Source of the DNA: Oncomelania hupensis
Taxonomy: Eukaryota; Mollusca; Gastropoda; Littorinimorpha; Pomatiopsidae
Direction: 5' to 3'
DNA: 64,000 nt
Assembly (NCBI GenBank): GCA_036898135.1
Contig: CM072513.1
Span: forward strand, 87,119,502-87,183,501
Every line of letters starts with the position of its first letter. Positions within the stretch are counted from its first letter, which is position 1. Below, piece after piece: positions 36,891 to 60,181 of this stretch. Under the pieces are notes generated by a model. It was not told where the DNA came from, made no database searches, and saw nothing but the letters and a program-made list of their open reading frames with translations. The position numbers and the translations under genes were made by a program.

Positions 36891-36897
36891 TGAAAAA

Positions 36898-37032: not shown

Positions 37033-37323
37033 CGCTTTTGTACAGAAATCAACTGAATATTTCTTGGACAAAAACACACACACACACAATAATTATTGAT
37101 CTAAGCCTTCAGCAAAAGAATGTGTGAGGTCAGTTCTTCACTCATGACGTCATTTCTTACAAAGGTCGTTTTAGCCACAAAGCGAATTTGATTCCCCAAA
37201 AAATCCCAGCTGAACTAACAATGCCATAACTTGATGCATACTTTATAAAATTTATGCGTGATTTTGTGCGTGTCCCCTACAATTTTTCGAATTACTAAAA
37301 ACTGCCAGACAATGAGGCCACTT

Positions 37324-39171
37324 CTAAGGTTTATCGCCTCTGTGTGTACTTTGATGTTTCTTCACACTGTTTAACTGTGTGAATGCTTTGCCACAGTCAA
37401 TGCACTTGTAAGGTTTATCACCTGTGTGTGTACGTTGATGTATCTGCAGATTGCTTAAAAGTGTGAATGTTTTGCCACAGTCAGTGCACTTGTAAGGTTT
37501 AGCACCTGTGTGTATACGTTGATGTCTCTTCAGATCGCCTAACTGTCTAAATGCTTTGCCACAGTCAGTGCACTTGTAAGTTTTATCAACTGTGTGTGTA
37601 CGTTGATGTGTCTTCAGTTGACGTGACATTGTGAATGTTTTGCCACAGTCAGTGCACTTGTAAGGTTTATCTCCTGTGTGTGTACCATGATGTCTCTTCA
37701 GATTGTCTAACTGTGTGAATGCTTTGCTACCGTCAGTGCACTTGTAAGTTTTATCAACTGTGTGCGTACGTTGATGTCTCTTCAGATGACCTGACTCTGT
37801 GAATGCTTTGCCACAGTCAGTGCACTTGTACGGTTTATCACCTGTGTGTGTACGTTGATGATTCTGCAGATTGCCTAACAGTGTGAACGCTTTGCCACAG
37901 TCAGTGCATTTGTAAGGTCTATCACCTGTGTGTGTACGTTGATGTCTCTTCAGACCACCTAAGTCTGTGAATGCTTTGTCACAATCAGTGCACTTGTAAG
38001 GTTTATCTCCTGTGTGTGTAAGTTGATGTCTCTTCAGATGATTTGACTCTGTGAATGCTTTGCCACAGTCAATGCATTTGTAAAGTTCATTACCTGAGTG
38101 TGTACGTTGATGTTTCTTCAGACGACCTGACTCTGTGTATGCTCTGCCACAGTCAGTGCACTTGTAAGGTTTAGCACCTGTGTGTGTACGTTGATGTGTC
38201 TTCAGATGACTTGACACTGTGAATGCTTTGCCACAAACAGTGCACTTGTAAGGTTTATCACCTGTGTGTATACGATGATGTGTCTTCAGATGACCTGACT
38301 CTGTGAATGCTTTACCACAATCAGTGCACTTGTAAGGTTTATCACCTGTGTGAGTACGTTGATGCTTCTTCAGATCGCTTAACTGTATGAATGCTTTGAC
38401 ACAGTCAGTGCACTTGTAAGGTTTATCACCTGTGTGAGTACGTTGATGCTTCTTCAGATCGCTTAACTGTATGAATGCTTTGACACAGTCAGTGCACTTA
38501 TAAGGTTTATCACCTGTGTGAGTACGTTGATGCTTCTTCAGATCGCTTAACCATGTGAATGCTTTGACACAGTCAGTGCACTTGTAAGGTTTATCACCTG
38601 TGTGTGTATGTTGATGAGTCTTCAGACGACCTGAAATTGTGAATGCTTTGCCACAGGCAGTGCGCTTGTAAGGTTTATTACCAGTGTGTGTACGTTGATG
38701 TATCTTCAGATCGCTTAACTGTGTGAATGCTTTGCCACACTTGTAAGATTTATCACCGGTGTGTATACGTTGATGTGTCTTCAGATGACCTGACTGTGTG
38801 AGAGCCTTGCTACAGTTAGTACGCTTAGTTGTGTTACTTATCGAGGTGCTGTCAGAGTGTACTAGCTTGTGTGAGTTCAAGTACTGTGCTGTTGTAAAAA
38901 CCTTGTCACATACCTCACAAATAAAACGTTTTACTTTCAGGTCCTCTTCCCTCTTTCCTAGCATATCACTAACTCCACCAACTGAATTCATGCTGACGTT
39001 TGAGAGTTTCTGTTTGTGGTAGGACATCATGTGAGTCCTGAGACTCGTGAACTGTACAAAAGCTGAGGAACATTGCTGGCATTTGTATTTCCTCTCCAGC
39101 GAAAGTAGCTTGGATGTTTTGGGGTTACTCGATGCCAATTGGTGCTTTTCGGCGATAGCGGATGTATTCTG
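37324..39171 (-). CDS. C2H2 zinc-finger exon of PRDM9-like gene A
   Basis: Begins at acceptor gtgttttag followed by CAG, so the frame enters from an upstream exon (QNTSAIAEKHQL...); no ATG is needed at the left end of the open frame. Finger 1 (KCQQCSSAFVQF...H..SYH) and finger 2 (CEVCDKVFTTAQY) are isolated. A degenerate finger 3 follows, then 17 more 28-residue fingers of consensus KPYKCTDCGKAFT-x7-HQRTHTGD. Defects: finger 4 lacks the CTDC part (9-bp in-frame deletion relative to copy B), finger 5 has Arg for the first Cys, finger 16 has Gly for the second Cys. It ends GDKP then TAG (37324-37326), right after the array, as in PRDM9. Confidence 0.93.
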   Translation of the reverse strand, partial: QNTSAIAEKHQLASSNPKTSKLLSLERKYKCQQCSSAFVQFTSLRTHMMSYHKQKLSNVSMNSVGGVSDMLGKREEDLKVKRFICEVCDKVFTTAQYLNSHKLVHSDSTSISNTTKRTNCSKALTQSGHLKTHQRIHTGDKSYKCGKAFTQLSDLKIHQRTHTGNKPYKRTACGKAFTISGRLKTHQHTHTGDKPYKCTDCVKAFTWLSDLKKHQRTHTGDKPYKCTDCVKAFIQLSDLKKHQRTHTGDKPYKCTDCVKAFIQLSDLKKHQRTHTGDKPYKCTDCGKAFTESGHLKTHHRIHTGDKPYKCTVCGKAFTVSSHLKTHQRTHTGAKPYKCTDCGRAYTESGRLKKHQRTHSGNELYKCIDCGKAFTESNHLKRHQLTHTGDKPYKCTDCDKAFTDLGGLKRHQRTHTGDRPYKCTDCGKAFTLLGNLQNHQRTHTGDKPYKCTDCGKAFTESGHLKRHQRTHTVDKTYKCTDGSKAFTQLDNLKRHHGTHTGDKPYKCTDCGKTFTMSRQLKTHQRTHTVDKTYKCTDCGKAFRQLGDLKRHQRIHTGAKPYKCTDCGKTFTLLSNLQIHQRTHTGDKPYKCIDCGKAFTQLNSVKKHQSTHRGDKP

Positions 39172-41521
39172 CTAAAACACACAAAGAAGAGAACAAGATC
39201 TTAATCGATACGGTCGGAAACAATTCGAAATAAGCAAACTCAAATATTACTTAACATCATTTACAAAACTTTATTTGAATTTGTTTTATTTTTTAAAACC
39301 AACAACGTACTCCCATGACCTCTATGGAGAAAATGGATTTCTAGTATAATCGTAACTATAATCTATATATTTCACGATGATTTAGTATACAATGACCCTG
39401 CTGAATTATCAAGCAATCATCAATATACTATATGAATATCGAATACATGCACAGCTACACAGTGAGAACAAATTGCGCTGCATTTTAAAAACAATACCTT
39501 AGTATCTGTTTTCTTGTCTTCATCACTGTCGCCAAACTAACAGGGTACAAAGTGTGTCACCAAGGTAATAGCTCTTGTAAATGTCACAAGTCACTATTAT
39601 CTAATACTTACTGGTGTATCTTCAACAACAAGCAGAGGACCATGTTCTGGACAGTCATTTTCATGTTCCAAGTTACATTCTTCACAATCTGAAATGTACA
39701 CTAAAATTAGTTTTGCTGCAGATAAGACACAGACAGCTAATGTGTTTCCTTGCCTCACAGAAGAAATGCAATACGACATGAAACAACATGACCAATTGTT
39801 CTCTGGTCTACCATTTTGCATTTAAACATATAGAAAAAAGAAGAAACTCGCCTAATGGTGAGAACTGTCTCTCTGGCACAGCTCCATGGTAAGTACTGTC
39901 GGTAAGAAACATTTAATAAACCTAGATGGGCAGGCTTGACAACAAAGACGTTTACTCATTTATAAAAGGAGTGCAGCAACAAAACTTACTGGTCAACAGG
40001 AAATTGTTGAGAGGCTTTCGGGTAGTCCTTCTTTAACCCTAATTAAACTTTGAACTAGACGGGAAAAGCCCATATGACCCACATGCTCTTTATGGAATAA
40101 GTCCCCTCCCCCCTCCCTCTCTTCACCCCACCCCACTTCCCTCCCACCAAAAAAAAAATGTATGGAAACAGTATTAAACTGTAAAGTAATGCAGACTTTG
40201 ATAATTTTTCGATGCTCCTACCTTCAAATGACCTTGACCCCCAGCTCCAAATACACTCATGTACAATGACATACTTAAACTACAACAAAAGTTTTGTTAT
40301 GCCAATAAATAGTGACCTTGGTATGACCTTGATCTTCAGCGACTTTGACATGAACTTGACCTTCGTGTGATCTCTCATGCTCGTGTGTAATCAAATAACC
40401 CAATGTTGTTGCATATACGTGGGGGGGGGGGGGGGGTCTAATATAGAGACATTCTACTGTACGATGACCCATTTTTTATTGTTTTAGTAAGACCTAAAAT
40501 GACCTTGACCTTCACAATCAACTAAAAAACAACACTTATATGAAAGATCTATCTGTTACCTCTAAATACAACAAGTTTTAGCATAAATATCTCTCATATT
40601 TTTGGCTCGTCACTTCCAAGTACCCATACGAACCAACTATGGACAGAGCTAGTGACCATGACGCGAGGATGACCAAATGTGCATAATATAATATATTATG
40701 CTAAAATAATCTTAAGTTCGATAGTATTAATGTAAATAAAAAGTGAACTTTTGCAAAAACTTGTAATTTCTTGACTAACATTTTGCAAAAAATTTTCATT
40801 TCTTGACTAACATTTGCTGACTATGTGACATTAACCTTGAAGTGAAGTCATTAATTCACTGATAAGGTCTTGTGGGTATACCCCATCCTACGAAGTTCAG
40901 TTGTGATACATGAAAAAGATTCAGAGTACTCAGCCATTCTTACAGTTTTGCACAGATGGTCAGCGGACGGAGGACTAACAAACTGATGGACGACGAATGG
41001 ACAGACAAAAACTTGTTTGTGGATATCATTTTTCGACTAGTATTTAGGACTCGTCTCACCTAGATTTGCACAAATCTGGACAAGTTTGATTTTGGGATGA
41101 AGTACATAGAGTTCTATTCAATCATATCCCGTAAATCAAAAAGCAATATATTCAATTTTCACACCCACAAAATTAAATTTCCTACAATGTATTCTTTCCT
41201 ACACAACATTAAATTTCCTACAATGTATTACTTCCTACATGTGGTGTCTTTTCAAATACAAAATTGCAAAAATCCACACGATTACAACATTAATTTTTTT
41301 TAAGCATACTCAATGCAGCTAAATTACTCTTTAATGTTATCAAGTCTCAAAACAAACAAAAACAACGGAAAATAGAATGGAATATCCTACTCACAAATGA
41401 ATCTGTCATCATTAGGCACCTCAAGTTCCATGTAGTTAATGGATGGTCGTTTTCTAAAGCTGTACACATGTGGCTCTTCATCACTCTTGTGGGATTTCGT
41501 CTGTTTTAAGTGTCTTTTTGG
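37324..41521 (-). CDS. PRDM9-like zinc-finger protein lacking the SET domain, copy A (four exons, 5' end not found)
   Basis: Joined minus-strand exons: 41395-41521, 39612-39688, 39498-39536, 37324-39171; all introns GT-AG and all phases agree. The product starts with a Lys-rich stretch and an SSXRD-like YSFRKRPSINYMELEVP, then DDRFIYCEEC and DCPEHGPLLVVED, which align with the SSXRD end and pre-SET zinc knuckle of PRDM9 (DDDYLYCEEC, C..HGP). Next is a 13-residue exon FGDSDEDKKTDTK, then one isolated C2H2 finger like PRDM9's post-SET finger, another isolated finger, and a C-terminal tandem C2H2 array. PRDM9 binds DNA through its array and trimethylates H3K4/K36 through SET. Here the introns between knuckle and fingers are 75 and 326 bp and AT-rich, leaving no room for a SET domain. 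No KRAB exon was found. Expected nuclear; function unknown. The frame is fully open, arguing against simple decay. Confidence 0.78.
39498..39536 (-). CDS. 13-codon linker exon of PRDM9-like gene A
   Basis: FGDSDEDKKTDTK, phase 0 on both sides, with acceptor ending gttag and donor gtattg. Identical position in copy B. FGD could be a relic of the YGDEY end of a SET domain, but this is speculative. Confidence 0.6.
39612..39688 (-). CDS. Pre-SET zinc-knuckle exon of PRDM9-like gene A
   Basis: Enters in phase 1 (completing Tyr) and ends in phase 0 at donor gtaagt. Encodes CEECNLEHENDCPEHGP followed by LLVVEDTP. The C-x2-C-x8-C-x3-H spacing matches the PRDM9 knuckle. Confidence 0.82.
40057..41095. 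repeat. Repeat R2, copy 2 of unit A (intron)
   Basis: Within the intron between the SSXRD-like and knuckle exons. Includes a 15-G run (about 40421-40436; longer in unit B, about 56693-56711) and several TGACCTTGACC motifs. Confidence 0.65.
41395..41521 (-). CDS. SSXRD-like exon of PRDM9-like gene A
   Basis: 127 bp; acceptor gtttag, donor gtgagt; phase 0 in, 1 out. Encodes PKRHLKQTKSHKSDEEPH, then VYSFRKRPSINYMELEVP and NDDRFI. This resembles the PRDM9 MYSLRERK--Y-E--EP-DDDYL segment. Upstream exons are not identified; 250 bp further upstream the dead LINE begins. Confidence 0.75.
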
Positions 41522-42173
41522 CTAAACAATAAAACAAGCCATAGTTTAGCAAGCAATATTAGAGGAACCAGGAGGACCTGAGAGAATATTGATCACCTAA
41601 ATAAAATGTATGACGTTGATAGGGATGAAAAAAGTTTTTAAAGTTCTTGCATTTTCTTCATCAATTGAACAACTGCAAATTTATAACAATTACTAGGCAT
41701 TTACAAGAAATCAGAAGATTGTGCACTTGTAATTTTTTAAAATTTATTTACATTTTTTTTAGCCATGTGGGTTTGGGCACTGAATAGAATAGACCCAACG
41801 TTTTCCAACGTGTCATAAGAGGTGACTAACAGGGGTGATGTTAGCATGGCATCATTGGGCGACAGTCTTCTACACAGAAGTCACCGGCCAGGATGGAGAA
41901 ACCTCATGTTACTACAGGTTCAACGACCACGTGCTCGGCGCCAAGGAGAGCCACACTGTATTCATGGATATCGGCTATGGCCAACAGCATGGAGAGGATT
42001 GGGCCCTGCCAGGTCTTTCTTGTCCAAGACACACTGCATGATGAAAAGAACCATTTACTCCATACCGGATCGGTCGTCGCCCAGATCACCAAGGACCGCA
42101 CCTTCCGTTGGCAACCAGGATGGAGGCGATAATCGTGCTACTGATGGACAACTTAGCAAGATCCGCACCAAAG

Positions 42174-43010
42174 ACAACATCGTCATAGGAACCTGGAATG
42201 TCAGGACCATAAATGCGGAGGGAAAATGAGAAGAACTGGCCCACGAGCTGGACCACTATCGATGGAAGGTTTTAGGGATCAGCGAACTGCGCTGGAAAGG
42301 CCTAGGTGAAACAACGACCGACAAAGGTCACAAGCTCTATTTCAGCGGTAGAGATGATAGGCATGAACACGGCGTTGGATTCATGGTCCACATGAACATT
42401 CTAGCCACTGTCATGGGTTGCCGCCCAGTCTCCAGTAGGCTCATTACCATCCGCCTGAGAGCAGCCCCTTTCAACATCACCGTCATCCAGGCCTATGCCC
42501 CAACATCAGACTATGACGACAGCGAAATGGAGGATTTCTATTAAAATCTACAGGCGGTCCTTGACCAAGTGCCGAAGAAGGACATAGTCATAATGCAAGG
42601 CGACTGGAATGCCAAGGTTGGCCAAGATGCGCACCACAACTGGGGAGAAACACGTGGACCCCACTGCAACAACGAGACAAATGACAGGGGTCTGAGACTC
42701 TTGGAGTTTGCCAGATACAACAATCTGATACTGGCAAACACGCTTGGTCTCCACAAAAAATCCAGATGATGGACATGGCACAGTCCCGGCGGGGAGCATC
42801 ACAACCAGATCGACTACATCATGGTCAAGAAACGCTTCAGATCAAGCATCAACATTGGCAGGACACGCACTTTTCTAAGAGCATACATCGGAAGTGACCA
42901 CGATCTCATTATGATGTCTTTCCGGCTCCACTTGAAGAGAGTAAACACAGCAAAGTGCACTAGATTGAAGTTTGACCTGGACAAACTGCAAGACCCGGAG
43001 GTGACAGAAA
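42174..43010 (+). pseudogene. RTE LINE APE endonuclease region (broken)
   Basis: Endonuclease/exonuclease/phosphatase-type nickase domain of the LINE, resembling CFDP2/Bov-B proteins. GTWNVRT, SELRWKG, QAYAP, GDWNAKVG and SDHDL catalytic motifs are visible in one frame, interrupted by in-frame stops (after AEGK, after DFY, after KKSR). Copy B (58453-59290) has the same stops plus a CAG-to-TAG change in FQA (about 59295). Confidence 0.88.
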
Positions 43011-44274
43011 TATTTCAGGCCACAATTGGGGGGAAATTTGCACCACTGCTCATTTTGGGAGCTGGTGAAGTAGATGTCAACACCATGATAACCACCTTCA
43101 ACTCAGCTGTGACAGATGCCACCACGGAGATCATTGGAAAGCACCAGCCAAAGAAGAAGCTGTGGATTACACCTGAACTTTTGGACTTGTGTAATGAAGA
43201 GAGATGAAAAAGAAAAAGAACACCTAACAGGGAGCTGATGCTTACCAAAAAATCAACAATGACATCCAAATAGGCATGCGCACAGCAAAGGAGAACTGGA
43301 CAAAAGATCAATGCCAGAAAATAGAGAACCGTCTGAACAAGAACAACAGCAAGAAGGCCTACCAGACTGTGAAGTGGCTGACAAGTGTTAATCAGCTCAA
43401 GGTCTCCACGATCCAAAGCAAGTCTGGCATATTCCTTACAGAAGAACAAGAAGTCTTGGACTGATGGACAAGGTACTGCTCAGACCTTTACAACCATACA
43501 CCAAACGGAGACCCATCAGTTCTAGCATATCCTGAGAACAGAGAAGAAGAAATCCTCCCAATTCTCCAAGAAGAAGTTGAGGCAGCAGTGCAATCGCTGA
43601 AGAAGGGGAAGTCAGTGGACGTGGACAACATACCCACGGAACTGCTTCAAGCAGGAGGAGAAGCGATGATTGACGCACTCACCATTATCTGTAACAAGAT
43701 CTGGCAGAGTGGGGAGTGGCCTACACCAGGACCCAGTCGCTTGTCATCACTTTTCCCAAAAAAGGTAACCTTCAGGAATGTGAAAATTACCGCACATCTA
43801 CCTCATCAGCCATCCCAACAAGGTCCTCCTGAAAATAATACTCAACAGGTTTAACCCCAAGCTGAACATATCATAGCTGAAGAACAAGCAGGATTCAGGC
43901 AAGGATGGGCAAGTAGCGAGAGTAGCGACTACATTTTGTAGTTTCGCTACTATTTGGAGTAGTTTGTAACGATCCAAACTACATATTGTAAAAATGTAGT
44001 TGTAAAGCAGCGAACTACAAATTTGTCAGTAGCGAAGTAGCGAAAATGTGTTTTTCGCTACGCTACTTCCCTTGCCGTGTGACTTGCACTTTCAGTCAAG
44101 CCGAAGCGAGTGCTGTCTCGCGCGAGATTGATCGCTCGCTCAGCGAACGGAAGCCTGATTGTGATAGGCTGAAAGCAAAAGCCAGCCACGTGACTTTCAA
44201 AAGCGCGCGTCAGTCATCTCAGTCTTTGTTCCGGCAAATCAAGCACAGAACGCACAAATTTTAGACCGCAGAAG

Positions 44275-44490
44275 ATGGAGAAACTTCCAACTTTGTTTAA
44301 ACCATATGTAGAATTTTTTCATTTCAAAGAAGAAACGGACAATGCATTTATATTTAAATGCAAGTACAGATGCAATGAGTATTCAACGAGCAAGACGACA
44401 GCATCCAATCTAAGGCTTAATTTCAAGTCTGCGTATACAACCTTATGGCTGTATTTATGTTTTGTATCAGACATAACTGAGTACATATAA
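44275..44490 (+). pseudogene. Relic BED-finger start of a hAT transposase
   Basis: Begins ATGGAGAAACTTCC; protein MEKLPTLFKPYVEFFHF then FIFKCKYRCNEYSTSK and ASNLRLNFKSAY. The aromatic-rich start, Cys pair, STSK and ASNLR resemble the BED zinc finger at hAT transposase N-termini, but the Cys spacing is altered and the His ligands are missing. 71 residues only; a relic at best. Confidence 0.45.
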
Positions 44491-44783
44491 CTTTTTTTTT
44501 TTCTATTTTTGACTTTGATTATTAATTTATTATTAATAATATTTTTTGTATTTTGCAAATGGTACATAATGTATTAAGTGTGCTCCTATATAATGATCTT
44601 GACTTGCAATGTTATCAATAACAAATTTTGTAGTCTAAGGAAATATTTTGTATCTTTTTTTTTCTTTTTTTTTTGTAATCTGATAAAAAGCATATATTAT
44701 TAAAAGTATTCACTTTTTTTTTCTTGTCTTTTTAAAAAAATTTACTTACATTTAAAAAATACTTAGCAGTCCCATTGTGATTA

Positions 44784-45591
44784 TCCTATCCTATCTCATC
44801 CTGTCCCGTAACCCGGAGGTCGTAGGGGCACCACATATGATCGTTTAACCAGCATACTCCATCTTTCTCTGTCCTCAGCAGCCCTGATGGCTTCGCTCAG
44901 TGTCAAACCAGTCCATTCTCGAATGTTGTCCTCCCACCTCTTTTTTGGTCTCCCTCTTCTTCTACCTCCTTGCACTGTGACTTGCAGAATAGTCTTTGCA
45001 GCAAGGCCTGATGATCTGGTGACGTGGCCATACCATCGGAGTTTCCGTTTCTTCACCATTGTGAGCAGGTCATCGTGTTGTCCAATGGCTTGTGTGATGG
45101 TCTGTCGGACTTCGTCGTTGGTGATGTGTTGGGTATAGGAAATGCCCAGAAGTCTTCTGTAGCACCTCATCTCCATGCTTTGTATTCTTCGTTGGAGATC
45201 TGCTGTGAGGGTCCATGTTTCGCAAGCATATAGGAAGATGGAGATGACAAGGGAGCGCAGCAGTCTTACTTTGGAATGTAGACTGATGGTCCTGTCTTTC
45301 CAAATGGGCTTCAACCTTGTCAGGGCAGCAGTTGTTTGTGCGATCCTGGAGAGGACTTCCTGTTGGGACCCATTGTCTGATACAATGGCTCCTAAATATT
45401 TGAAGCTATGCACTGTGTTGAGGGATTGGCCTTGGACTTCGATGTCCGTGTTGATGCCATTGGTGTTGTTGGTCATCATTTTGGTTTTCTCTGCACTTAT
45501 TTCCATTCCATAAGCTCTGGAGGTGGTGTCAAGCCTCTGTACCAGCTGTTCAAGTTCTTGTTCCTCTCCAGCCAATCCATCAATGTCAAAA
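44784..45591 (-). mobile_element. RTE LINE inside the hAT element, unit A
   Basis: Minus-strand LINE 3' part (from [15 protein letters not shown] to GYGTG) with (TCCTA)n. TSD ATTGTGATTA at 44774-44783 and 45592-45601. Also in unit B (61064-61876), so older than the split; the tail has one more TCCTA unit in B. Confidence 0.92.
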
Positions 45592-45735
45592 ATTGTGATT
45601 ACAGTTTTTTTTTAAAGTAGTTTGAAAAGTAGTTAGCTACTTTTTTAAAAGTAGCGTAAAAGTAGCGAACTACATTCCTTCAAAATGTAACTGTAAAGTA
45701 GCGAACTACTTTTTTAGACTAATGTAACTGTAGTG

Positions 45736-46010
45736 TCCTATCCTATCCTATCCTGTCCCATAACCCGAAGGTCGTAGGGGCACCACAGATGATCGCTTAA
45801 CCAGCATACTCCATCTTTCTCTGTCCTCAGCAGCCCTCATGGCTTCGCTCAGTGTCAAACCAGTCCATTCTCGAATGTTGTCCTCCCACCTCTTTTTCGG
45901 TCTCCCCCTTCTTCTACCTCCTTGCACTGTGCCTTGCAGAATGGTCTTTGCAAGGCCTGATGATCTGGTGACGTGGCCATACCATCGGAGTTTCCGTTTC
46001 AACAACACAC
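45736..46010 (-). mobile_element. Second RTE LINE inside the hAT element, unit A only
   Basis: 275 bp, (TCCTA)n plus LINE 3' end, with 10 bp of non-LINE sequence (aacaacacac) at its truncated 5' end. TSD AACTGTAGTG at 45726-45735 and 46011-46020. Unit B shows the single, empty site at about 62010-62019. Confidence 0.95.
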
Positions 46011-47700
46011 AACTGTAGTGTAGCGGACTACTTTTCAAAAGTAGTTTGCCCATCCTTGGATTCAGGGCAGGGCAAAGTACCACTGAACAGATTTTCAACC
46101 ACAGAATAATCTGCGAGAAATACCTACAGCACCAACAACATCTATATTTTATGTGTTTGTAGCCTTCAAGAAAGCATTTGACCGAGTCTGGCATGCAGCT
46201 CTGTGGGCAACAATGAAAGTGTACAACATCAGCCCTAAAATTATTGAAGTCATCAAAAGCCTGTATGACAAGGCTACCAGTGCAGTCCTCCACAACAGCG
46301 CCCTCGGAAACTGGTTCAGAACAACAATTGGTGTGCGTCAGGGATGCCTACTCTCTCCAACACTCTTCAACATCTTCCTAGAGCGCATCATGTCAGATGC
46401 CCTTGCAGATCAAGAAGGTACAGTCAGCATAGGGAAAGAGCAATCTCCAACCTTCGTTTTGCGGATGACATTGATGGATTGGCTGGAGAGGAACAAGAAC
46501 TTGAACAGCTGGTAAAGAGGCTTGACACCACCTCCAGAGCCTATGGAATAGAAATAAGTGCAGAGAAGACCAAAATGATGACCAACAACACCAATGGCAT
46601 CAATACGGACATCAAAGTCCAAGGCCAATCCCTCAACACAGTGCATAGCTTCAAATATTTAAGAGCCATTGTATCAGACAATGAGTCCCGACAGGAAGTC
46701 CTCTCCAGGATTGCACAAACAATTGCTGCCCTAGCGAGGTTGAAGCCAATTTGGAAAGACAGGACCATCAGCCTACATTCCAAGGTAAGACAGCTGCACT
46801 AAATTGTCATCACCATCTTCCTATACGTTTGCAAAAAATGGACCCTCACAGCATAGATCTACAACGAAGAATACCAAGCATGGAAGTGGGGATGCTACAG
46901 AAGACTTCTTGGCATTTTCTTAACCCAGCACATCACCAATGACGAAGACCATCACACAAGCCATTGGACAACACGATGACCTGCTCACAGTGGTGAAAAA
47001 ACTAAAACTCCGATGGTATGACCACGTCACCAGATCATCAGGTCTTGCAAAGACCATCCTGCAAGGCACAGTGCATTAAGGTAGAAGAAGAGGGAGACCG
47101 AAAAAGAGGTGGGAGGACAACATTCGAGAATGGACTGGTTTGACACTGAGCGAAACCATCAGGGTTGCCGAGGACAGGGAAAGATGGAATATGCTGGTTA
47201 AACGATCATCTGTGGTGCCCCTATGACCTCCGAGTTACAGGATAGAATAGGATAGGATTTAGGGGGTGAGGGGGGGGGAGGTAGGGGTGTTGATGAGGAG
47301 GATCTTTGACACTTTATTGTCCATTTTTATTGGGAAATTCTGGGCCGCCTCCCCTTAGGAAGGCGTGCAGTAGTCACAGCCTGTGGCGCGCCCAAACCCA
47401 ACTTATCTAATATTAGTTGTGTTTTTGAAATTTTGTTGTGGGAGCAAAACCGGAGAAAACACAGGCATGTTCATTTTGTTCTCCAGTCCTCTGTTGCTGT
47501 TCTATCTTTGTTTTTCTCTCTCAATCTCTGACACTGAAATTCCAAGCATTTAAAGAAAAGGAAAACTGCCATGATCAGTTAATAATAATAATAACTAATA
47601 ATAATAATAATAATAAATAATAATACTAATAAATAATAATAAAACTGGATCTATATATGCCTCATTCCTAAATCAGACTCAAAGAGCAGCAATCTGTATC

Positions 47701-47870
47701 CTACATACACACTCACATGTTACAGATGCTCTTACATACACACTCACATGTTACAGATGCTCTTACATACACACTCACATGTTACAGATGCTCTTACGTA
47801 CACACTCACATGTTACAGATGCTCTTACGTACACACTCACATGTTGCAGATGCTCTTACATACACACCAA
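47701..47870. repeat. 31-bp minisatellite, unit A
   Basis: About five units of tacatacacactcacatgt plus tacagatgctct. The unit B copy is 63708-63846 and marks the end of the duplication. Confidence 0.92.
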
Positions 47871-48296
47871 TCACCAATTCATCACTCAAACATGGGGTGT
47901 AAAGGCAAGTCACTATTAGAAGACAGAAAGGAAATCAAATCTTATTTTTTAATTTTAGACAGACTGCATCCAATACCATTATTGAAGGGAGGGAGGAAAC
48001 CAGAGTACCCAGAGAATACCCTTGGTGATCTGAAATTCTTGTACCTAAGTCACGTAAGTTCGTCCCCTGTGAGGTTAGAACCCGCGACTTGTGGCAAAGG
48101 AAATCAGCTCTCTCTCTCTCTCACATGGACACTTCCACAGAAAACGATATAAGCATACATACTTGGACTCGCACACACAAGCAGAATCTTACACCTTACA
48201 CTTTGAAGACCAGTGGGGGTGGGGGGGGGGGGACTAAACCACTCCCACTCACTCTCGCTCTCTCTCTCCCTCCCTCTCTCTCTTTCATCTGGGAAA

Positions 48297-50356
48297 AATC
48301 TAAAATCTACCTCTTTTGAAATAACATGAGGAAAACACAGTCTGAGGTGTTCGGGGCTGTAAATCTAACATCAAAGACTCATTTTAGAAACAAAATGGAT
48401 ACAACGAATACAAAAACACAATTGGTCACTAACCGTCGACTAAGGGTACAACAAACTTCGGGTATAACGAAGAGAAAACACTTTCCTCTGGACTTCGTTG
48501 TAAGCGCGTTCGATTGTATTTAGGACTCATCTCCTATCCTATCCTCGCACAGATTTGCTAAAATCTGGAATTCTTTTTTTTGTGGGTGAATACATAGACT
48601 CACATTGCTATGCATGTGAGTAACAAAAACCTCAAGCATTAATTTTTGCATTAAAAAGTAAAAAGGAAATCAACATTGAGAACGAACCACACCGACACAG
48701 CCCAATAGCTCATGAAGACCAATGACAAGACAGTAAGAGTAGTCAAATGTAAAGAATACACAAAAAACTTCAGAACTTCATTTTCATTAGGTCTTTTCGC
48801 CTACAGTTTTGTTTCCATTGATCATATCTGGATGACATAAAAATAAAATAATAATAAACACAATGCATCTGCTTTCACACAAAAAGTATATACTTTCTTA
48901 TACTCCTGAAACATTCCAGTTTTCCAACTCTGAAATGAACAAGTTCTGGACCACAACGCGTGCAGAGTTCCTTTGCGTGCACTTTTGTTGTTCTGTTCTA
49001 TTCAGTTCCGTTATTTAAAGTGACATCATCGTCATTACGTAACTCGATTTGCACAAGTTTGGTTTTACGTTGGAGGCATAGGTAAAGTCTAAATATATAT
49101 ACCAAACTTGAACCAAATCTCTCCAGTAGTTTGGGAGAAAATAGGATTAGAAACTGGAGGACCAAAACCCATATGACTCACATGCACCTTATGGAACTTT
49201 GATGTGAAGGCGTACCAACAGACATACACATAATAATAATTACTGAATATTCCTTCAGCTGTTTGACAAGCAATACAGGAAGTTCTATCCTACTGTTTTG
49301 AAACTTAAGACTCCATGCCTTAGTCATATATGTATTCAGTATTCTTGAACTTGAAGTACTATATTCTCAAGAAATAAATAGGAAATTAAATAAAAAAATT
49401 TATTAGCTGAACTTTAAACTAAATTATGCCTATCTGGACTAACGTTAATAATAATTATAGTAGTAATACTTTCCCATGATCCATTCTTTTAGGTTAGGTG
49501 TCTGTGGCCTGTCATTGTGAAGTTTATTTTAAATTTGCTTCGTTGCAAAATAAGATAAGATAGTTATTCATTGCTTACAGGGTCCAGCGGACTGCAAAAG
49601 ACCCGAATCAGGACCATAAAATCAGGACCATAACTTCGTTGAAAGAAGACTCACCCCTGATCCGTATAAAAGATCTGCTGAAACAACCCTAGTGGTAACA
49701 CTGACGGCACTACACCGGCCGGTCACTTTACAATAAAGGCATCCCATGCAAGGGACGCTGAGGCTATACTTTTAATTTATCGAACCCCCGTTTACAAAAA
49801 CAAAATAGAATCTAAACATCATTACAAAATAGTAAAAAACGTCAATAACAGTACTAAACACAAAAACGACTACATCAATGCTAAATCATCTGATAAATTG
49901 GCATAACAACATAAGTGAATTACAAAGGTCTCAACACTAGCGTCAAATAACAAAAAAACAAGTTAAGATTGCAATCGCGGTGAAAAACTGTAGTTTTTTA
50001 GTTTACTTTTTACAATACTTGAACACAAACGAGCCGAATACAGTGTAACTCCAATGCGTTATCGCTAAATACTACAACACTGAACTGCATTAAGAAAAAA
50101 CTACATCGTTAACAATACTCCTTCTAACATCGATGGCAGATGTCTGCTCACAAGGTGTAATTTTACCAAAAAATAAAGCAAAAATCTACAAAACAAAGAA
50201 ATGCTAGACAACACAATTATGCTTTTGTTTTAATTTAAATCCAGCATCAACAACACCCTCTCCCCAAATTCGAAGATTACAAAACATTGGTATGACAAAA
50301 GCAACAGCATCAATCCTGAACTAGGAACACTACGAAAAGACAACACGAGTTAAATA
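48297..50356. other. 2-kb segment in unit B absent from unit A
   Basis: No gene recognised. Contains an R2 fragment (about 49070-49235), R1 copy (49550-49815) and AT-rich DNA. Either inserted in B or deleted from A; I see no clear flanking duplication. Confidence 0.6.
49550..49815 (+). repeat. R1 repeat, longest copy
   Basis: Includes taaagtgaccggc complement blocks and gatccgtataaaagatctg; opposite orientation to the copy at 120-365. Confidence 0.65.
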
Positions 50357-50623
50357 CGTCAGTAAATGACAAACAGTCCGACATTTAAAGACTATAGCAA
50401 GGATAATACATTAGTTTTATATTTACATGCACAATAATTTTATATTTAAACGCACGAAATAAAGAACTCCATTGACTACAGGGACATTGAATTGACCATG
50501 CACACGAAAGGGGGACTACATGGACAAAGAGACTAAATGGAGCATCAAAAAGCCTCGACTCAATGCAAACAGTGTGTACAAGATGCAGTTTTATTTCTTC
50601 AATTGCAAATTTTTTACAAAGAT

Positions 50624-51017
50624 TCCTATCCTATCCTATCCCGTAACTCTGAGGTCATAGGGGCACCACAGGTGATCGTTTAACCAGCGTACTCCATCTT
50701 TCCCTGTCCTCAGCAACACTGATGGCTTCGCTCAGTGTCAAACCAGTCCATTCTCGAATGTTGTCCTCCCACCTCTTTTTCGGTCTCCCTCTTCTTCTAC
50801 CTCCTTGCACTGTGCCTTGCAGGATGGTCTTTGCAAGACCTGATGATCTGGTGACGTGGCCACACCATCGGAGTTTCTGTTTTTTTCACCACTGTGAGCA
50901 GGTCATCGTGTTGTCCAATGGCTTGAGTGATGGTCTGTCGGACTTTGTTGTTGGTGATGTGCTGGGCATAGGAAATGCCCAGAGGACTTCTGTAGCACCT
51001 CATCTCCATGCTTTGTA
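50624..51017 (-). mobile_element. 5'-truncated RTE LINE fragment (unit B)
   Basis: Orthologous to the unit A copy at 30387-30778, with the same truncation point (ctttgtag then attacagg). Confidence 0.88.
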
Positions 51018-51994
51018 GATTACAGGAGGCCAATCAAATTAACCCTTGCAAAAGTCAGTTCATTGCAATGTAAACACTGGACTGAAAAAGTATGAAAAAT
51101 TATATATATTGATATCAACACTTATTTATCCAGCGACAAATTAACAATGGCTTAATCAATAAAAATGTTCTAAAGTATCCAAACTACTTTCACACATAGA
51201 ACACACCATATATTGTTTCTGTAAACGTTCATATGAAACAATTTCCAGAAACTTGTTCTGTGCTCAACTTTTGGCAGGGTGTCTTACTAAAAAAATGAGT
51301 AAATTTTAAAATAAGACTATCTTGAAGTCAGAAATTGAAACATCGGTAAAAATGTAAACAGCTTCAATATCTTAACCACGCATTTGTGATGAAAAATTAT
51401 CTCGCTTTATTGTATTTTATCATTCGCATTCGGGGCCAGTAAAAAGTAATTTAATTATTTGTACAACTCAGGCATAGTTCATTAATAATAAATGTACAAT
51501 ACAATATGGTGAGTGGAAGTTGTCACGCAAGATGGAATAATATTTACCAAAGAGCTTTGTGTACTAGTGCAATGATATTCAATTGAGATGTGACAATTCC
51601 CATATCCCACTCCTAAAATGGGAAAGAAAAAAATCATTAATGTATCAGTTTGATCAATTTATTTTTTACAATACAAGAAGAACAGAAATGACACTAGAAA
51701 AAAAACCACAGAAACGTGTCCATGGCCACTTTACACATTTCTTTCCAATATTGTCATGCACGTACATAATAACAAATAGAAGCATTTGTTCGTACTTATT
51801 CTGTACACAAACACGAAGAAAACTTCTGCGCCAATGAGGTAAACAGAAAGTGATCAATCTTGCTGCAAAACCATTCATCTTATTTAATATTGTTAGAGTT
51901 ACAACAAGGAAATACCAGTTCAGCAATAACACAATAACCATGTAATGTAATGTAATGTTCAGTGGTCAACTTATTTTTTGATCACAAAGAAAAA

Positions 51995-53175
51995 CTAGAA
52001 GGGTAAAGCCCGAACAACTCACATGATTCTTATGAAACTCAATATTTAACATGAAAATTAGTGCCCAGTAAAAAAACAAAATTAAACGGTTGCATTAAAA
52101 TGTAAAGCAATAGGACTTTGATTTTTCTATGCTCTTGACATTGAGCTGGCATTGATCTCCGGTTCCAAATACACTCATGTACGATCAAATAAAGTACAGC
52201 AAAAGCTGTATTATACCTCCCCAAAAGGGGATCTTAGGATAACTTGACCTTCAGTAACCTTGACCTTGGGATGCCCTTGACCCTCACACTTAATCTCTCA
52301 TGCACCTCTGATGAAATAACCCAATTTTGTTGCCTACTATGGGTTAAATTTAGTCCTTCGGATAAGAATATAAACTGAGGACGTCTGTGCACGCACGCAC
52401 GCATTCCATCGCATGGGCTTTAAAAATCCTGACGCTCAAGTCCTAGACGGGCGAGAGCCGGCTACACAAATACACTGTGCACGCACTGGGTCAGCCCTGG
52501 TCACACAGGGCAGTGCTCAGTCGTCTTGGTATCTCGCTATGCGCCCAAAACGCTGCAAGTGGGCGCCTCAGGTGGCTGTAGTTAGATCCTGTGTCGGCCA
52601 GACCACTGAGCATTCCACAATGGATTTAGACGCTATCAATGGACATCATCATCATCATCATCATCAAAAAGGAAACCATTCCATTGTACGATGACCTATT
52701 TTTTGTTATGATTTTGCAAGGCCTAATATGACCTTGACCAACGCAAAAATTGAACTTATTTGAAAGATCAATCTATCATCTTTAACAGGTCAAGGTCACT
52801 TCAAAGTACCTAAACAAATCGACTTTAGACTGCCGCAGTGATCTTGACCTAGGAGTGAGGTTGACAAAATGTGCATAGTATGTGTGTCTCGTTAATATCT
52901 ATCATGCACCAAAGAATCATTAGTTCAATAGTAATAACCTAGAAAAAAATTGAAACTTTGTGAAAAATTGTCATTTTTTTGACTAACATTTGATGACCCT
53001 ACCTTGGTTGTGATAGTTGAAATAGGCTCTGAGAACTTAACCACTTTAAAGTTTTTGCACAGACAGATCATGGACAGTGGAAATACAGATCGACGGAAAG
53101 ATATTTTTTTCCCCGATATAATCTTCTGGACTATTTAGGACTCATCTCGCAGATTTGCAAAAATCTGGAATGAAA
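51995..53175. repeat. Repeat R2, copy 1 of unit B
   Basis: Counterpart of 35693-36890, with the SINE-1 fragment at 52352-52666. Confidence 0.65.
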
Positions 53176-53598
53176 AAAAAATTGGGGTGGGGTGGTGTTG
53201 GGGGTGGAGATGGGGTGAGAGTGGGGTGGGGGGATGGGGTTGGGGGTGGAGGGAGGGGGGAGTACACAGACTCACACTGCTATGCATGTCATCACTGGAA
53301 AGTAGTTTATTTCGCTTTTGTACAGAAATCAACTGAATATTTCTTGGACAAAAACACACACACACACAAATTATTGATGTAAGCCTTCAGCAAAAGAATG
53401 TGTGAGGTCAATTCTTCACTCATGTCATTTCTTACAAAGGTCGTTTTAGCCACAAAACTAATGTGATTCCCGAAAAAATCCCGGCTGAACTAACAATGCC
53501 ATAACTTGATGCATACTTTATAAAACTTATGCGTGATTTTGTGCGTGTCCCCTACAATTTTTCGAAGTACTAAAAACTGCCTGACAATGAGGACACTT

Positions 53599-55455
53599 CT
53601 AAGGTTTATCGCCTCTGTGTGTACGTTGATGTTTGTTCACACTGTTTAACTGTGTGAATGCTTTGCCACAGTCAATGCACTTGTAAGGTTTATCACCTGT
53701 GTGTGTACGTTGATGTATCTGCAGATTGCTTAAAAGTGTGAATGTTTTGCCACAGTCAGTGCACTTGTAAGGTTTATCACCTGTGTGTGTACGTTGATGT
53801 CTCTTCAGATCGCCTAACTGTCTAAATGCTTTGCCACAGTCAGTGCACTTGTAAGTTTTATCAACTGTGTGTGTACGTTGATGTGTCTTCAGTTGACGTG
53901 ACATTGTGAATGTTTTGCCACAGTCAGTGCACTTGTAAGGTTTATCTCCTGTGTGTGTACGATGATGTCTCTTCAGATCGTCTAACTGTGTGAATGCTTT
54001 GCTACAGTCAGTGCACTTGTAAGTTTTTTCAACTGTGTGCGTACGTTGATGTCTCTTCAGATGACCTGACTCTGTGAATGCTTTGCCACAGTCAGTGCAC
54101 TTGTACGGTTTATCACCTGTGTGTGTACGTTGATGATTCTGCAGATTGCCTAACAGTGTGAACGCTTTGCCACAGTCAGTGCATTTGTAAGGTCTATCAC
54201 CTGTGTGTGTACGTTGATGTCTCTTCAGACCACCTAAGTCTGTGAATGCTTTGCCACAATCAGTGCACTTGTAAGGTTTATCTCCTGTGTGTGTAAGTTG
54301 ATGTCTCTTCAGATGATTTGACTCATTGAATACTTTGCCACAGTCAATGCATTTGTAAAGTTCATTACCTGTGTGTTTACGTTGATGTTTCTTCAGACGA
54401 CCTGACTCTGTGTATGCTTTGCCACAGTCAGTGCACTTGTAAGGTTTAGCACCTGTGTGTGTACGTTGATGTGTCTTCAGATGACTTAACACTGTGAATG
54501 CTTTGCCACAATCAGTGCACTTGTAAGGTTTATCACCTGTGTGTATACGATGATGTGTCTTCAGATGACCTGACTCTGTGAATGCTTTACCACAATCAGG
54601 GCACTTGTAAGGTTTATCACCTGTGTGAGTACGTTGATGCTTCTTCAGATCGCTTAACTGTATGAATGCTTTGACACAGTCAGTGCACTTGTAAGGTTTA
54701 TGACCTGTGTGAGTACGTTGATGCTTCTTCAGATCGCTTAACTGTATGAATGCTTTGACACAGTCAGTGCACTTATAAGGTTTATCACCTGTGTGAGTAC
54801 GTTGATGCTTCTTCAGATCGCTTAACCATGTGAATGCTTTGACACAGTCAGTGCACTTGTAAGGTTTATCACCTGTGTGTGTATGTTGATGAGTCTTCAG
54901 ACGACCTGAAATTGTGAATGCTTTGCCACAGGCAGTGCGTTTGTAAGGTTTATTACCAGTGTGTGTACGTTGATGTATCTTCAGATCGCTTAACTGTGTG
55001 AATGCTTTGCCACAGTCAGTGCACTTGTAAGATTTATCACCTGTGTGTATACGTTGAGGTGTCTTCAGATGACCTGACTGTGTGAGAGCCTTGCTACAGT
55101 TAGTACGCTTAGTTGTGTTACTTATCGAGGTGCTGTCAGAGTGTACTAGCTTGTGTGAGTTCAAGTACTGTGCTGTTGTAAAAACCTTGTCACATACCTC
55201 ACAAATAAAACGTTTTACTTTCAGGTCCTCTTCCCTCTTTCCTAGCATATCACTAACTCCACCAACTGAATTCATGCTGACGTTTGAGAGTTTCTGTTTG
55301 TGGTAGGACATCATGTGAGTCCTGAGACTCGTGAACTGTACAAAAGCTGAGGAACATTGCTGGCATTTGTATTTCCTCTCCAGCGAAAGTAGCTTGGATG
55401 TTTTGGGGTTACTCGATGCCAATTGGTGCTTTTCGGCGATAGCGGATGTATTCTG
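53599..55455 (-). CDS. C2H2 zinc-finger exon of PRDM9-like gene B
   Basis: Two isolated fingers then an 18-finger array with KCTDCGKAFT framework, ending HRGDKP and TAG. The best preserved of the two arrays; only fingers 3 and 5 lack a zinc ligand. Confidence 0.93.
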   Translation of the reverse strand, partial: QNTSAIAEKHQLASSNPKTSKLLSLERKYKCQQCSSAFVQFTSLRTHMMSYHKQKLSNVSMNSVGGVSDMLGKREEDLKVKRFICEVCDKVFTTAQYLNSHKLVHSDSTSISNTTKRTNCSKALTQSGHLKTPQRIHTGDKSYKCTDCGKAFTQLSDLKIHQRTHTGNKPYKRTACGKAFTISGRLKTHQHTHTGDKPYKCTDCVKAFTWLSDLKKHQRTHTGDKPYKCTDCVKAFIQLSDLKKHQRTHTGHKPYKCTDCVKAFIQLSDLKKHQRTHTGDKPYKCPDCGKAFTESGHLKTHHRIHTGDKPYKCTDCGKAFTVLSHLKTHQRTHTGAKPYKCTDCGKAYTESGRLKKHQRKHTGNELYKCIDCGKVFNESNHLKRHQLTHTGDKPYKCTDCGKAFTDLGGLKRHQRTHTGDRPYKCTDCGKAFTLLGNLQNHQRTHTGDKPYKCTDCGKAFTESGHLKRHQRTHTVEKTYKCTDCSKAFTQLDDLKRHHRTHTGDKPYKCTDCGKTFTMSRQLKTHQRTHTVDKTYKCTDCGKAFRQLGDLKRHQRTHTGDKPYKCTDCGKTFTLLSNLQIHQRTHTGDKPYKCIDCGKAFTQLNSVNKHQRTHRGDKP

Positions 55456-57800
55456 CTAAAACACACAAAGAAGAGAACAAGATCTTAATCGATACGGTCG
55501 GAAACAATTCGAAATAAGCAAACTGAAATATTACTTAACATCATTTACAAAACTTTATTTGAATTTGTTTTATATTTTTAAACCAACAATGTACTCCCAT
55601 GACCTCTATGGAGAAAATGGATTTCTAGTATAATTGTAACTATAATCTATATATTTCACGATGATTTAGTATACAATGACCCTGCTGAATTATCAAGCAA
55701 TCATCAATATACTATATGAATATCGAATACATGCACACCTACACAGTGAGAACAAATTGCGCTGCATTTTAAAAGCAATACCTTAGTATCTGTTTTCTTG
55801 TCTTCATCACTGTCGCCAAACTAACAGGGTACAAAGTGAGTCACCAAGGTAATAGCTCTTGTAAATGTCACAAGTCACTATTATCTAATACTTACTGGTG
55901 TATCTTCAACAACAAGCAGAGGACCATGTTCTGGACAGTCACCTTCATGTTCCAAGTTACATTCTTCACAATCTGAAATGTACACTAAAATTAGTTTTGC
56001 TGCAGATAAGACACAGACAGCTAATGTGTTTCCTTGCCTTACAGAAGAAATACGACATGAAACAACATGACCAATTGTTCTCTGGTCTACCATTTTGCAT
56101 TTAAACATATAGAAAACAGAAGAAACTCGCCTAATGGTGAGAACTGTCTCTCTGGCACAGCTCCATGGTAAGTACTGTCGGTAAGAAACATTTAATAAAC
56201 CTAGATGGGCAGGCTTGACAACAAAGACGTTTACTCATTTATAAAAGGAGTGCAGCAACAAAACTTACTGGTCAACAGGAAATTGTTGAGAGGCTTTCGG
56301 GTAGTCCTTCTTTAACCCTAATTAAACTTTGAACTAGAAGGGAAAAGCCCATATGACCCACATGCTCTTTATGGAATAAGTCCCCTCCCTCTCTTCACCC
56401 CACCCCACTTCCCTCCCACCCAAAAAAAAAATGTATGGAAACAGTATTAAACTGTAAAGTAATACAGACTTTGATAATTTTTCGATGCTCCTACCCTCAG
56501 ATGACCTTGACCCCCAGCTCCAAATACACTCATGTACAATGACATACTTAAACTACAACAAAAGTTTTGTTATGCCAATAAACAGTGACCTTGGTATGAC
56601 CTTGATCTTCAGCGACTTTGACATGAACTTGACCTTCGTGTGATCTCTCATGCTCGTGTGTAATCAAAAACCCCAATGTTGTTGCATATACGTGGGGGGG
56701 GGGGGGGGGGGTGGTGTCTAATATAGAGACATTCTACTGTACGATGACCCATTTTTTATTGTTTTAGTAAGACCTAAAATGACCTTGACCTTCACAATCA
56801 ACTCAAAAACAACATTTATATGAAAGATCTATCTGTTACCTCTAAATACAACAAGTTTTAGCATAATATCTCTCATATTTTTGGCTCGTCACTTCCAAGT
56901 ACCCATACGAACCAACTATGGACAGAGCTAGTGACCATGACGCGAGGATGACCAAATGTGCATAATATAATATATTATGCTAAAATAATCTTAAGTTCAA
57001 TAGTATTAATGTAAATAAAAAGTAAACTTTTGCAAAAACTTGTCATTTCTTGACTAACATTTTGCAAAAAATTTTCATTTCTTGACTAACATTTGCTGAC
57101 TATGTGACATTAACCTTGAAGTGAAGTCATTAATTCACTGATAAGGTCTTGTGGGTATACCCCATCCTACGAAGTTCAGTTGTGATACATGAAAAAGATT
57201 CAGAGTACTTAGCCATTCTTACAGTTTTGCACAGATGGTCAGCGGACGGAGGACTAACAAACTGATGGACGACGAATGGACAGACAAAAACTTGTTTGTG
57301 GATATCATTTTTCGACTAGTATTTAGGACTCGTCTCACCTAGATTTGCACAAATCTGGACAAGTTTGATTTTGGGATGAAGTACAAAGAGTTCTATTCAA
57401 TCATATCCCGTAAATCAAAAAGCAATATATTCAATTTTCACACCCACAAAATTAAATTTCCTACAATGTATTCTTTCCTACACAACATTAAATTTCCTAC
57501 AATGTATTACTTCCTACATGTGGTGTCTTTTCAAATACAAAATTGCAAAAATCCACACGATTACAACATTAATTTTTTTTAAGCATACTCAATGCAGCTA
57601 AATTACTCTTTAATGTTATCAAGTCTCAAAACAAACAAAAACAACGGAAAATAGAATGGAATATCCTACTCACAAATGAATCTGTCATCATTAGGCACCT
57701 CAAGTTCCATGTAGTTAATGGATGGTCGTTTTCTAAAGCTGTACACATGTGGCTCTTCATCACTCTCGTGGGATTTCGTCTGTTTTAAGTGTCTTTTTGG
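53599..57800 (-). CDS. PRDM9-like zinc-finger protein lacking the SET domain, copy B (four exons, 5' end not found)
   Basis: Joined minus-strand exons: 57674-57800, 55896-55972, 55782-55820, 53599-55455. Splice sites, phases and exon lengths equal copy A except the finger exon, which is 9 bp longer. Knuckle reads CEECNLEHEGDCPEHGP. Finger 4 is intact (YKCTDCGKAFTQLSD) and finger 16 has both Cys, so B is closer to the presumed ancestral array; finger 3 has His-to-Pro in HLKTPQRIH. Finger 16 helix position 3 is Asp in B and Asn in A. The SET domain is absent in the same place. The frame is open throughout. It may be a true paralogue of A or the other haplotype. Confidence 0.78.
55782..55820 (-). 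CDS. 13-codon linker exon of PRDM9-like gene B
   Basis: FGDSDEDKKTDTK, identical to copy A, phase 0 on both sides. Confidence 0.6.
55896..55972 (-). CDS. Pre-SET zinc-knuckle exon of PRDM9-like gene B
   Basis: Same length and phases as in A; one residue differs (E-G-D against E-N-D). All Cys/His are kept. Confidence 0.82.
56335..57375. repeat. Repeat R2, copy 2 of unit B
   Basis: Counterpart of 40057-41095, in the same intron. Confidence 0.65.
57674..57800 (-). CDS. SSXRD-like exon of PRDM9-like gene B
   Basis: Same as in A (YSFRKRPSINYMELEVP), one silent difference seen (gagagt against aagagt region of the Ser-His-Lys/Glu stretch is the only variable part). Upstream exons not identified. 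Confidence 0.74.
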
Positions 57801-60181
57801 CTAAACAATAAAACAAGCCATAGTTTAGCAAGCAATATTAGAGGAACCAGGAGGACCTGAGAGAATATTGATCACCTAAATAAAATGTATGACGTTGATA
57901 GGGGTGAAAAAAGTTTTTAAAGTTCTTGCATTTTCTTCATCAATTGAACAACTGCAAATTTATAACAATTACTAGGCATTTACAAGAAATCAGAAGATTG
58001 TGCACTTGTAATTTTTTAAAATTTATTTACATTTTTTTTAGCCATGTGGGTTTGGGCACTGAATAGAATAGACCCAACGTTTTCCAACGTGTCATAAGAG
58101 GTGACTAACAGGGGTGATGTTAGCATGGCATCATTGGGCGACAGTCTTCTACACAGAAGTCACCGGCCAGGATGGAGAAACCTCATGTTACTACAGGTTC
58201 AACGACCACGTGCTCGGCGCCAAGGAGAGCCACACTGTATTCATGGATATCGGCTATGGCCAACAGCATGGAGAGGATTGGGCCCTGCCAGGTCTTTCTT
58301 GTCCAAGACACACTGCATGATGAAAAGAACCATTTACTCCATACCGGATCGGTCGTCGCCCAGATCACCAAGGACCGCACCTTCCGTTGGCAACCAGGAT
58401 GGAGGCGATAATCGTGCTACTGATAGACAACTTAGCAAGATCCGCACCAAAGACAACATCGTCATAGGAACCTGGAATGTCAGGACCATAAATGCGGAGG
58501 GAAAATGAGAAGAACTGCCCCACGAGCTGGACCACTATCGATGGAAGGTTTTAGGGATCAGCGAACTGCGCTGGAAAGGCCTAGGTGAAACAACGACCGA
58601 CAAAGGTCACAAGCTCTATTTCAGCGGTAGAGATGATAGGCATGAACACGGCGTTGGATTCATGGTCCACATGAACATTCTAGCCACTGTCATGGGTTGC
58701 CGCCCAGTCTCCAGTAGGCTCATTACCATCCGCCTGAGAGCAGCCCCTTTCAACATCACCGTCATCCAGGCCTATGCCCCAACATCAGACTATGACGACA
58801 GCGAAATGGAGGATTTCTATTAAAATCTACAGGCGGTCCTTGACCAAGTGCCGAAGAAGGACATAGTCATAATGCAAGGCGACTGGAATGCCAAGGTTGG
58901 CCAAGATGCGCACCACAACTGGGGAGAAACACGTGGACCCCACTGCAACAACGAGACAAATGACAGGGGTCTGAGACTCTTGGAGTTTGCCAGATACAAC
59001 AATCTGATACTGGCAAACACGCTTGGTCTCCACAAAAAATCCAGATGATGGACATGGCACAGTCCCGGCGGGGAGCATCACAACCAGATCGACTACATCA
59101 TGGTCAAGAAACGCTTCAGATCAAGCATCAACATTGGCAGGACACGCACTTTTTTAAGAGCATACATCGGAAGTGACCACGATCTCATTATGATGTCTTT
59201 CCGGCTCCACTTGAAGAGAGTAAACACAGCAAAGTGCACTAGATTGAAGTTTGACCTGGACAAACTGCAAGACCCGGAGGTGACAGAAATATTTTAGGCC
59301 ACAATTGGGGGGAAATTTGCACCACTGCTCATTTTGGGAGCTAGTGAAGTAGATGTCAACACCATGATAACCACCTTCAACTCAGCTGTGACAGATTCCA
59401 CCACGGAGATCATTGGAAAGCACCAGCCAAAGAAGAAGCTGTGGATTACACCTGAACTTTTGGACTTGTGTAATGAAGAGAGATGAAAAAGAAAAAGAAC
59501 ACCTAACAGGGAGCTGATGCTTACCAAAAAATCAACAATGACATCCAAATAGGCATGCGCACAGCAAAGGAGAACTGGACAAAAGATCAATGCCAGAAAA
59601 TAGAGAACCGTCTGAACAAGAACAACAGCAAGAAGGCCTACCAGACTGTGAAGTGGCTGACAAGTGTTAATCAGCTCAAGGTCTCCACGATCCAAAGCAA
59701 GTCTGGCATATTCCTTACAAAAGAACAAGAAGTCTTGGACTGATGGACAGAGTACTGCTCTGACCTTTACAACCACACACCAAACAGAGACCCATCAGTT
59801 CTAGCATATCCTGAGAACAGAGAAGAAGAAGAAATCCTCCCAATTCTCCAAGAAGAAGTTGAGGCAGCAGTGCAATCGCTGAAGAAGGGGAAGTCAGCGG
59901 ACGTGGACAACATACCCACGGAACTGCTTCAAGCAGGAGGAGAAGCGATGATTGACGCACTCACCATTATCTGTAACAAGATCTGGCAGAGTGGGGAGTG
60001 GCCTACACCAGGACCCAGTCGCTTGTCATCACTTTTCCCAAAAAAGGTAACCTTCAGGAATGTGAAAATTACCGCACATCAACCTCATCAGCCATCCCAA
60101 CAAGGTCCTCCTGAAAATAATACTCAACAGGTTTAACCCCAAGCTGAACATATCATAGCTGAAGAACAAGCAGGATTCAGG

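Follow-up and report, generated by a model that had tools for sequence, protein, structure and literature searches.

Tandem PRDM9-like genes without a SET domain in the snail Oncomelania hupensis

Can a PRDM9 gene shed its SET domain, keep its reading frame, and remain in service? Two neighboring genes, copies A and B, raise this question in the window, by which we mean the whole 64-kb stretch of Oncomelania hupensis DNA analyzed here. Our analyses indicate that the two genes are probably a SET-deleted paralog of caenogastropod-type PRDM9 that was duplicated in tandem and is most likely decaying or under relaxed or absent constraint.

Gene models of the two copies

Each copy consists, as the earlier note on this DNA had described, of four minus-strand exons that fuse in phase. 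The introns are all of the GT..AG type, and the fused frame is stop-free over 696 codons in A and 699 codons in B. The features of the two genes are as follows.

37324-41521, minus strand: copy A as a whole, a four-exon gene
41395..41521, minus strand: copy A exon 1, SSXRD-like region (tblastn identity of 67-70% to Littorina P0005 and Babylonia P0001; profile E 1.8e-13)
39612..39688, minus strand: copy A exon 2, PR zinc knuckle (PF18445 at cut-off; profile E 2.5e-12)
39537..39611, minus strand: copy A intron 2, 75 bp, the expected site of the SET exons of relatives (alignment gap; SET match absent; no N)
39498..39536, minus strand: copy A exon 3, 13 codons (aligns to the post-SET segment of snail PRDM9; short, and weak taken alone)
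37324..39171, minus strand: copy A exon 4, with linker, isolated PRDM9 finger, second finger, 18-finger array, and stop TAG (14 of 18 array fingers with four zinc ligands)
37255..37323, minus strand: relic finger past the stop of copy A (in-frame translation; Trp replaces the first Cys of copy B)
53599-57800, minus strand: copy B as a whole, a four-exon gene
57674..57800, minus strand: copy B exon 1, SSXRD-like region (profile E 2.7e-13)
55896..55972, minus strand: copy B exon 2, PR zinc knuckle (profile E 1.6e-12)
55782..55820, minus strand: copy B exon 3 (identical to A exon 3 across 39 bases)
53599..55455, minus strand: copy B exon 4, with linker, isolated finger, second finger, 18-finger array, and stop TAG (16 of 18 array fingers with four zinc ligands)
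53530..53598, minus strand: relic finger past the stop of copy B (in-frame translation)

By their coordinates, introns of 75 and 326 bp flank exon 3, and these two introns, with the 13 codons of exon 3 between them, make up the interval 39172-39611 of copy A, as had been claimed. The window shows no start exon, and exon 1 is immediately preceded by an in-frame stop, so that a transcript would need an unseen 5′ exon or would have to start at a methionine within exon 1. At the other end, the stop TAG is common to A and B and is followed in frame by one further finger-like stretch.

Homology of the retained parts to snail PRDM9

Exons 1-2 are 70% identical to a Babylonia PRDM7-like protein across 60 residues, 65% identical to Littorina P0006 over 65 residues, and 64% identical to Nucella P0003 over 59 residues. 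A profile of the SSXRD-like region and knuckle, built from 14 molluscan PRDM9 proteins and one from an annelid, matches exactly the four expected exons among 2700 six-frame segments (E ≤ 2.5e-12; next best 0.5). When copy A was scanned with PF18445, the Pfam PR zinc knuckle, a 225-residue piece scored 25.8 bits, equal to the cut-off of 25.8, and a 68-residue piece scored 24.8. Pfam SSXRD (PF09514) gave no match to copy A up to E 10, which says little because, at E ≤ 0.01, this family also goes unreported in three snail PRDM9 proteins that carry SET (P0003, P0005, and P0006). The two domains named by the earlier note are thus upheld by the molluscan and annelid profile and, in one of two pieces of A, by PF18445 at its cut-off, but not by the Pfam SSXRD family; assignment to SSXRD comes through homology to snail PRDM9. 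One piece of A, compared with NCBIfam, had no match there. Zinc fingers and PRDM knuckles make up the best 60 of 100 matches in a PDB sequence search, in which the knuckles of PRDM4, PRDM9, and PRDM11 occur.

The finger that stands apart from the array is equally informative. A profile of the isolated finger, made from four snail sequences, scores 46.6 bits in exon 4 and 12.4 bits for the best array finger, and by this measure the match to the isolated finger preceding the array is specific. Aligned with the Littorina PRDM9-like protein, the predicted product matches at the SSXRD-like region, the knuckle, the post-SET segment, the isolated finger, and the finger that follows it; exon 3 falls immediately after the Littorina SET domain.

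Searches of protein sequences lead to the same relatives. Residues 1-100 of A recovered one protein among 36 candidates, the PRDM7-like protein of Babylonia areolata, and residues 16-190 of B recovered four among 206 candidates, the best being a Littorina saxatilis PRDM9-like protein (matching at 79% across 30% of the query, E 2.2e-59). An artificial snail query yielded 198 proteins at E ≤ 1e-10, 120 of them among the matches listed and 12 retrieved as sequences. A tree computed from 60 columns and 17 rows, with 9 of 14 inner branches weak, pairs A with B (support 97/96), and the nearest sequence by path is Littorina A; the branch to the A-B pair measures 0.24, whereas those to Littorina A and Littorina B measure 0.085 and 0.081, with most forks weak. 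Overall, exons 1, 2, and 4 are homologous to snail PRDM9, which supports the derivation of A and B from PRDM9, and the descent proposed earlier is borne out by exons 1-2, the isolated finger, and the alignment to Littorina PRDM9.

Absence of the SET domain

The clean absence of SET from both copies, also claimed in the earlier note, is supported by searches and by alignment. In tblastn searches of the window with 13 molluscan PRDM9 proteins, none of the 223 rows at E ≤ 1 overlaps SET by more than 8 residues, and a looser search with P0001 alone gave scattered matches to the SET stretch in unrelated places, at E 1.7 and above. A profile built from 15 SET domains, which recovers all of the 122 relatives retrieved (15 of these belong to the profile), reaches a best E of 0.54 among the 2700 six-frame segments. 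The alignment to the Littorina PRDM9-like protein contains a single gap, which runs from the first residue past the knuckle exon to the first residue of exon 3.

It is very improbable that these genes are complete, with SET and KRAB exons of PRDM9 that were misassembled or are located beyond the window. The window does not contain the 5′ end of the gene, which could sit above 64000, and no KRAB-like exon was detected at positions up to 64000 (best E 0.43, with a KRAB-like profile that recovers just 60 of 122 relatives). SET, however, is expected between exons 2 and 3, which lie only 75 bp apart in A and in B in a window without a single N, and it is unmatched throughout the window. The SET-deleted paralog that we favor would instead have arisen from a caenogastropod-type PRDM9 paralog that lost its SET exons, the simplest route being a single deletion from one intron into another. 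Because the intron remaining at the SET site is in phase 0, the frame would have survived this event. The product, if transcribed, would bind DNA through ≈14-16 fingers without methylating histones, and it could conceivably act as a competitor or dominant-negative.

No SET-less relative appeared in the protein searches with A and B, as the one and four proteins found are each SET-annotated. This absence is weak evidence, since the search is lossy: the query of A residues 1-100 missed P0005, which the query of B residues 16-190 found at E 2.2e-59. A non-exhaustive literature search by title and start of abstract likewise found no report of a SET-less PRDM9.

Evolution of the zinc finger array

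In both A and B, diversity among the array fingers is highest at four positions, the contacts -1, 2, 3, and 6, and their share of diversity is 0.50 in A (13 strict-pattern fingers) and 0.51 in B (15). The same computation on 11 other molluscan arrays of 2 to 13 fingers gave higher values for 10 (0.57 to 1.0) and a lower one for P0006 (0.34), the frame of reference being these molluscan arrays rather than other finger genes of the same genome. The contact share of complete vertebrate PRDM9 spans at least 0.33 to 1.0 in a published table, whose measure may differ from ours (PMC5519329), and concerted evolution of fingers is described for Prdm9 of the snail Lottia (PMC2779102). When the fingers of a single copy are compared with one another, the contacts have a pN/pS of 0.99 and the remaining positions one of 0.87 (A) or 0.73 (B), so past constraint off the contacts looks weak.

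The 18 fingers of A and the 18 of B are collinear, with 17 of 18 best matched at the same index and no finger gained or lost between the copies. Amino acid-changing differences between A and B affect 19 array codons, of which 1 encodes a contact, 2 encode a ligand, and 16 encode other positions; selection for a new DNA specificity since the duplication, sought in these changes, was not seen (1/19 at a contact). We read the array as having been shaped in PRDM9 fashion at an earlier time, apparently without turnover after the duplication. Zinc ligands have been lost in both copies, the complete array fingers (14/18 in A, 16/18 in B) having been counted by eye.

The tandem duplication seen in the assembly

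Copies A and B are 98-99% identical duplicates that lie in two long units of the assembly.

35660..47845: duplicated segment, unit 1 (aligned with unit 2 at 98.36% identity across 10103 columns and at 99.29% across 1841)
51958..63850: duplicated segment, unit 2 (ends 150 bases short of the window end)

Under our favored reading, the reduced gene would have been duplicated in tandem as part of a segment measuring 12 kb or more, the arrangement seen in the assembly. An alternative that is compatible with the other readings, but unlikely in our judgment, is that A and B are two haplotypes of one SET-less locus, misplaced in tandem by the assembler. A divergence of ≈1% is usual between alleles of a diverse mollusc, so the distance between the units is allele-like, and it is patchy along the segment; the 4.1 kb without in-register match that separates units 1 and 2 argues against this alternative.

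Upstream of exon 1, both units contain retroelement-like sequence that matches pieces of the frame at 33184-35130. That frame is itself an open reverse transcriptase frame of 648 codons (PF00078/RVT_1, E 2.4e-43), and partial copies related to it occur at other places in the window. The stretches 30117-31118 and 50352-51357, which are not part of the main duplicated segment, form a pair that is 94.6% identical and may mark an older or larger duplication broken by insertion.

Retention or decay

The earlier note had taken an open frame in both copies as a sign of a retained role, and the divergence between the copies does not bear this out. Coding substitutions between A and B number 25/2091 (1.20%), compared with 24/2094 (1.15%) in introns (p 0.89) and 46/3494 (1.32%) in introns plus 3′ flank (p 0.81). 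All compared noncoding sequence differs at 74/9281 positions (0.80%), which is below the coding rate, although not significantly (p 0.09). The upstream flank and retroelement part are more alike between the units (28/5787, summed), so the choice of noncoding reference matters. A comparison of the exons by dN/dS, as had been proposed, gave 22.5 nonsynonymous to 2.5 synonymous changes, a ratio of 2.35 on few changes that is indistinguishable from neutral (binomial p 0.46), and the small number of differences leaves such tests with low power. The nonsynonymous share is thus not below the neutral one, and the ligand losses further oppose a retained role. The stop that both copies share ahead of a relic finger and the longer tree branch leading to the pair, on a tree with mostly weak forks, also fit relaxation or decay. 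Neither copy has an early stop in its coding sequence, which says little at 98-99% identity, because the frame was still open in 43% of simulations with 25 neutral substitutions.

The indels tell a somewhat different story. The sole coding indel is a 9-bp in-frame difference, and no frameshift separates A and B in 2091 coding bases, where 5.0 would be expected from the introns (P 0.007 for none), 4.2 when the 3′ flank is added to the introns (P 0.015), and 2.3 from all compared noncoding sequence (P 0.105), figures subject to the caveat that noncoding indels may favor simple repeats. On this comparison, the absence of frameshifts leans toward retention. The splice sites, intact in both copies, and the 70% identity that exons 1-2 still share with Babylonia also count against decay.

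We therefore weighed a second reading, in which the genes are a retained SET-less derivative of PRDM9 that serves as a DNA-binding factor, possibly a repressor acting by way of its SSXRD-like part or a competitor of intact PRDM9 at its sites. The open frame with intact splice sites in both copies, the lack of frameshifts against the 2.3 to 5.0 expected, and the high diversity of the contact positions all favor it, as does the statement in PMC8835667 that SSXRD carries most of the repression potential in SSX proteins. Coding divergence that equals intron divergence, the lack of any surplus of contact changes since the duplication, the ligands lost in both copies, and the lack of a visible start exon in the window weigh on the other side, and we consider retention unlikely. 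Coding change that matches the introns, ligand losses in both copies, and a static finger number together suggest that A and B are most likely a decaying or strongly relaxed partial paralog.

Comparison with known PRDM9-related genes

The closest counterparts are the Littorina saxatilis PRDM9-like proteins P0005 and P0006, in which an SSXRD-like region, knuckle, post-SET segment, isolated finger, further finger, and terminal array follow in the same order; unlike these proteins, the window genes have no SET block and no visible KRAB-like N terminus. Primate PRDM7 retains SET with most of its fingers gone, the opposite of the loss seen here. SSX genes are not known to encode zinc fingers, whereas the window genes combine an SSXRD-like region, a knuckle, and fingers. 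Like the window genes, PRDM7 and other relaxed PRDM9 paralogs are described as partial PRDM9 duplicates under relaxed selection (PMC5519329), and SSX and the coelacanth KRAB zinc finger genes as PRDM9-related families without SET, the former with aKRAB plus SSXRD and the latter with aKRAB plus fingers and no SSXRD (PMC8835667). Teleost PRDM9 beta is also a PRDM9 paralog with domain loss, but it keeps SET and has lost KRAB and SSXRD (PMC5519329).

In the cited passages of these sources, the partial PRDM9 genes are ones in which SET is retained and KRAB, SSXRD, or fingers are gone. One large survey, by its own account, predicted a gene in its whole-genome step only where SET matched (PMC5519329), so an architecture such as that of the window genes would be missed there. 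We regard it as quite unlikely that a mollusc lineage made a SET-less, SSXRD-bearing finger DNA binder from PRDM9 by one frame-keeping deletion and retained it as a repressor or competitor, which would parallel the origin of vertebrate SSX and KRAB zinc finger genes from PRDM9-like ancestors. A natural deletion of SET that spares the SSXRD-like region, knuckle, and fingers would reveal the role of these parts in their own right, if the gene is expressed and an intact PRDM9 is kept.

Among the relatives retrieved, the neogastropod PRDM9-like predictions P0001, P0003, and P0004 (Babylonia, Nucella) carry SET without an annotated C2H2 array, the reverse of the window genes, and may be gene-model artefacts.

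Other features of the window

Apart from the genes and the repeats around them, an open frame of 596 codons in which Ser, Gly, His, and Gln are abundant lies at 21739-23529, with no Pfam match at E ≤ 0.001. The stretch 2490-3380 is a long, imperfect, purine-rich tandem repeat that is open in several frames.
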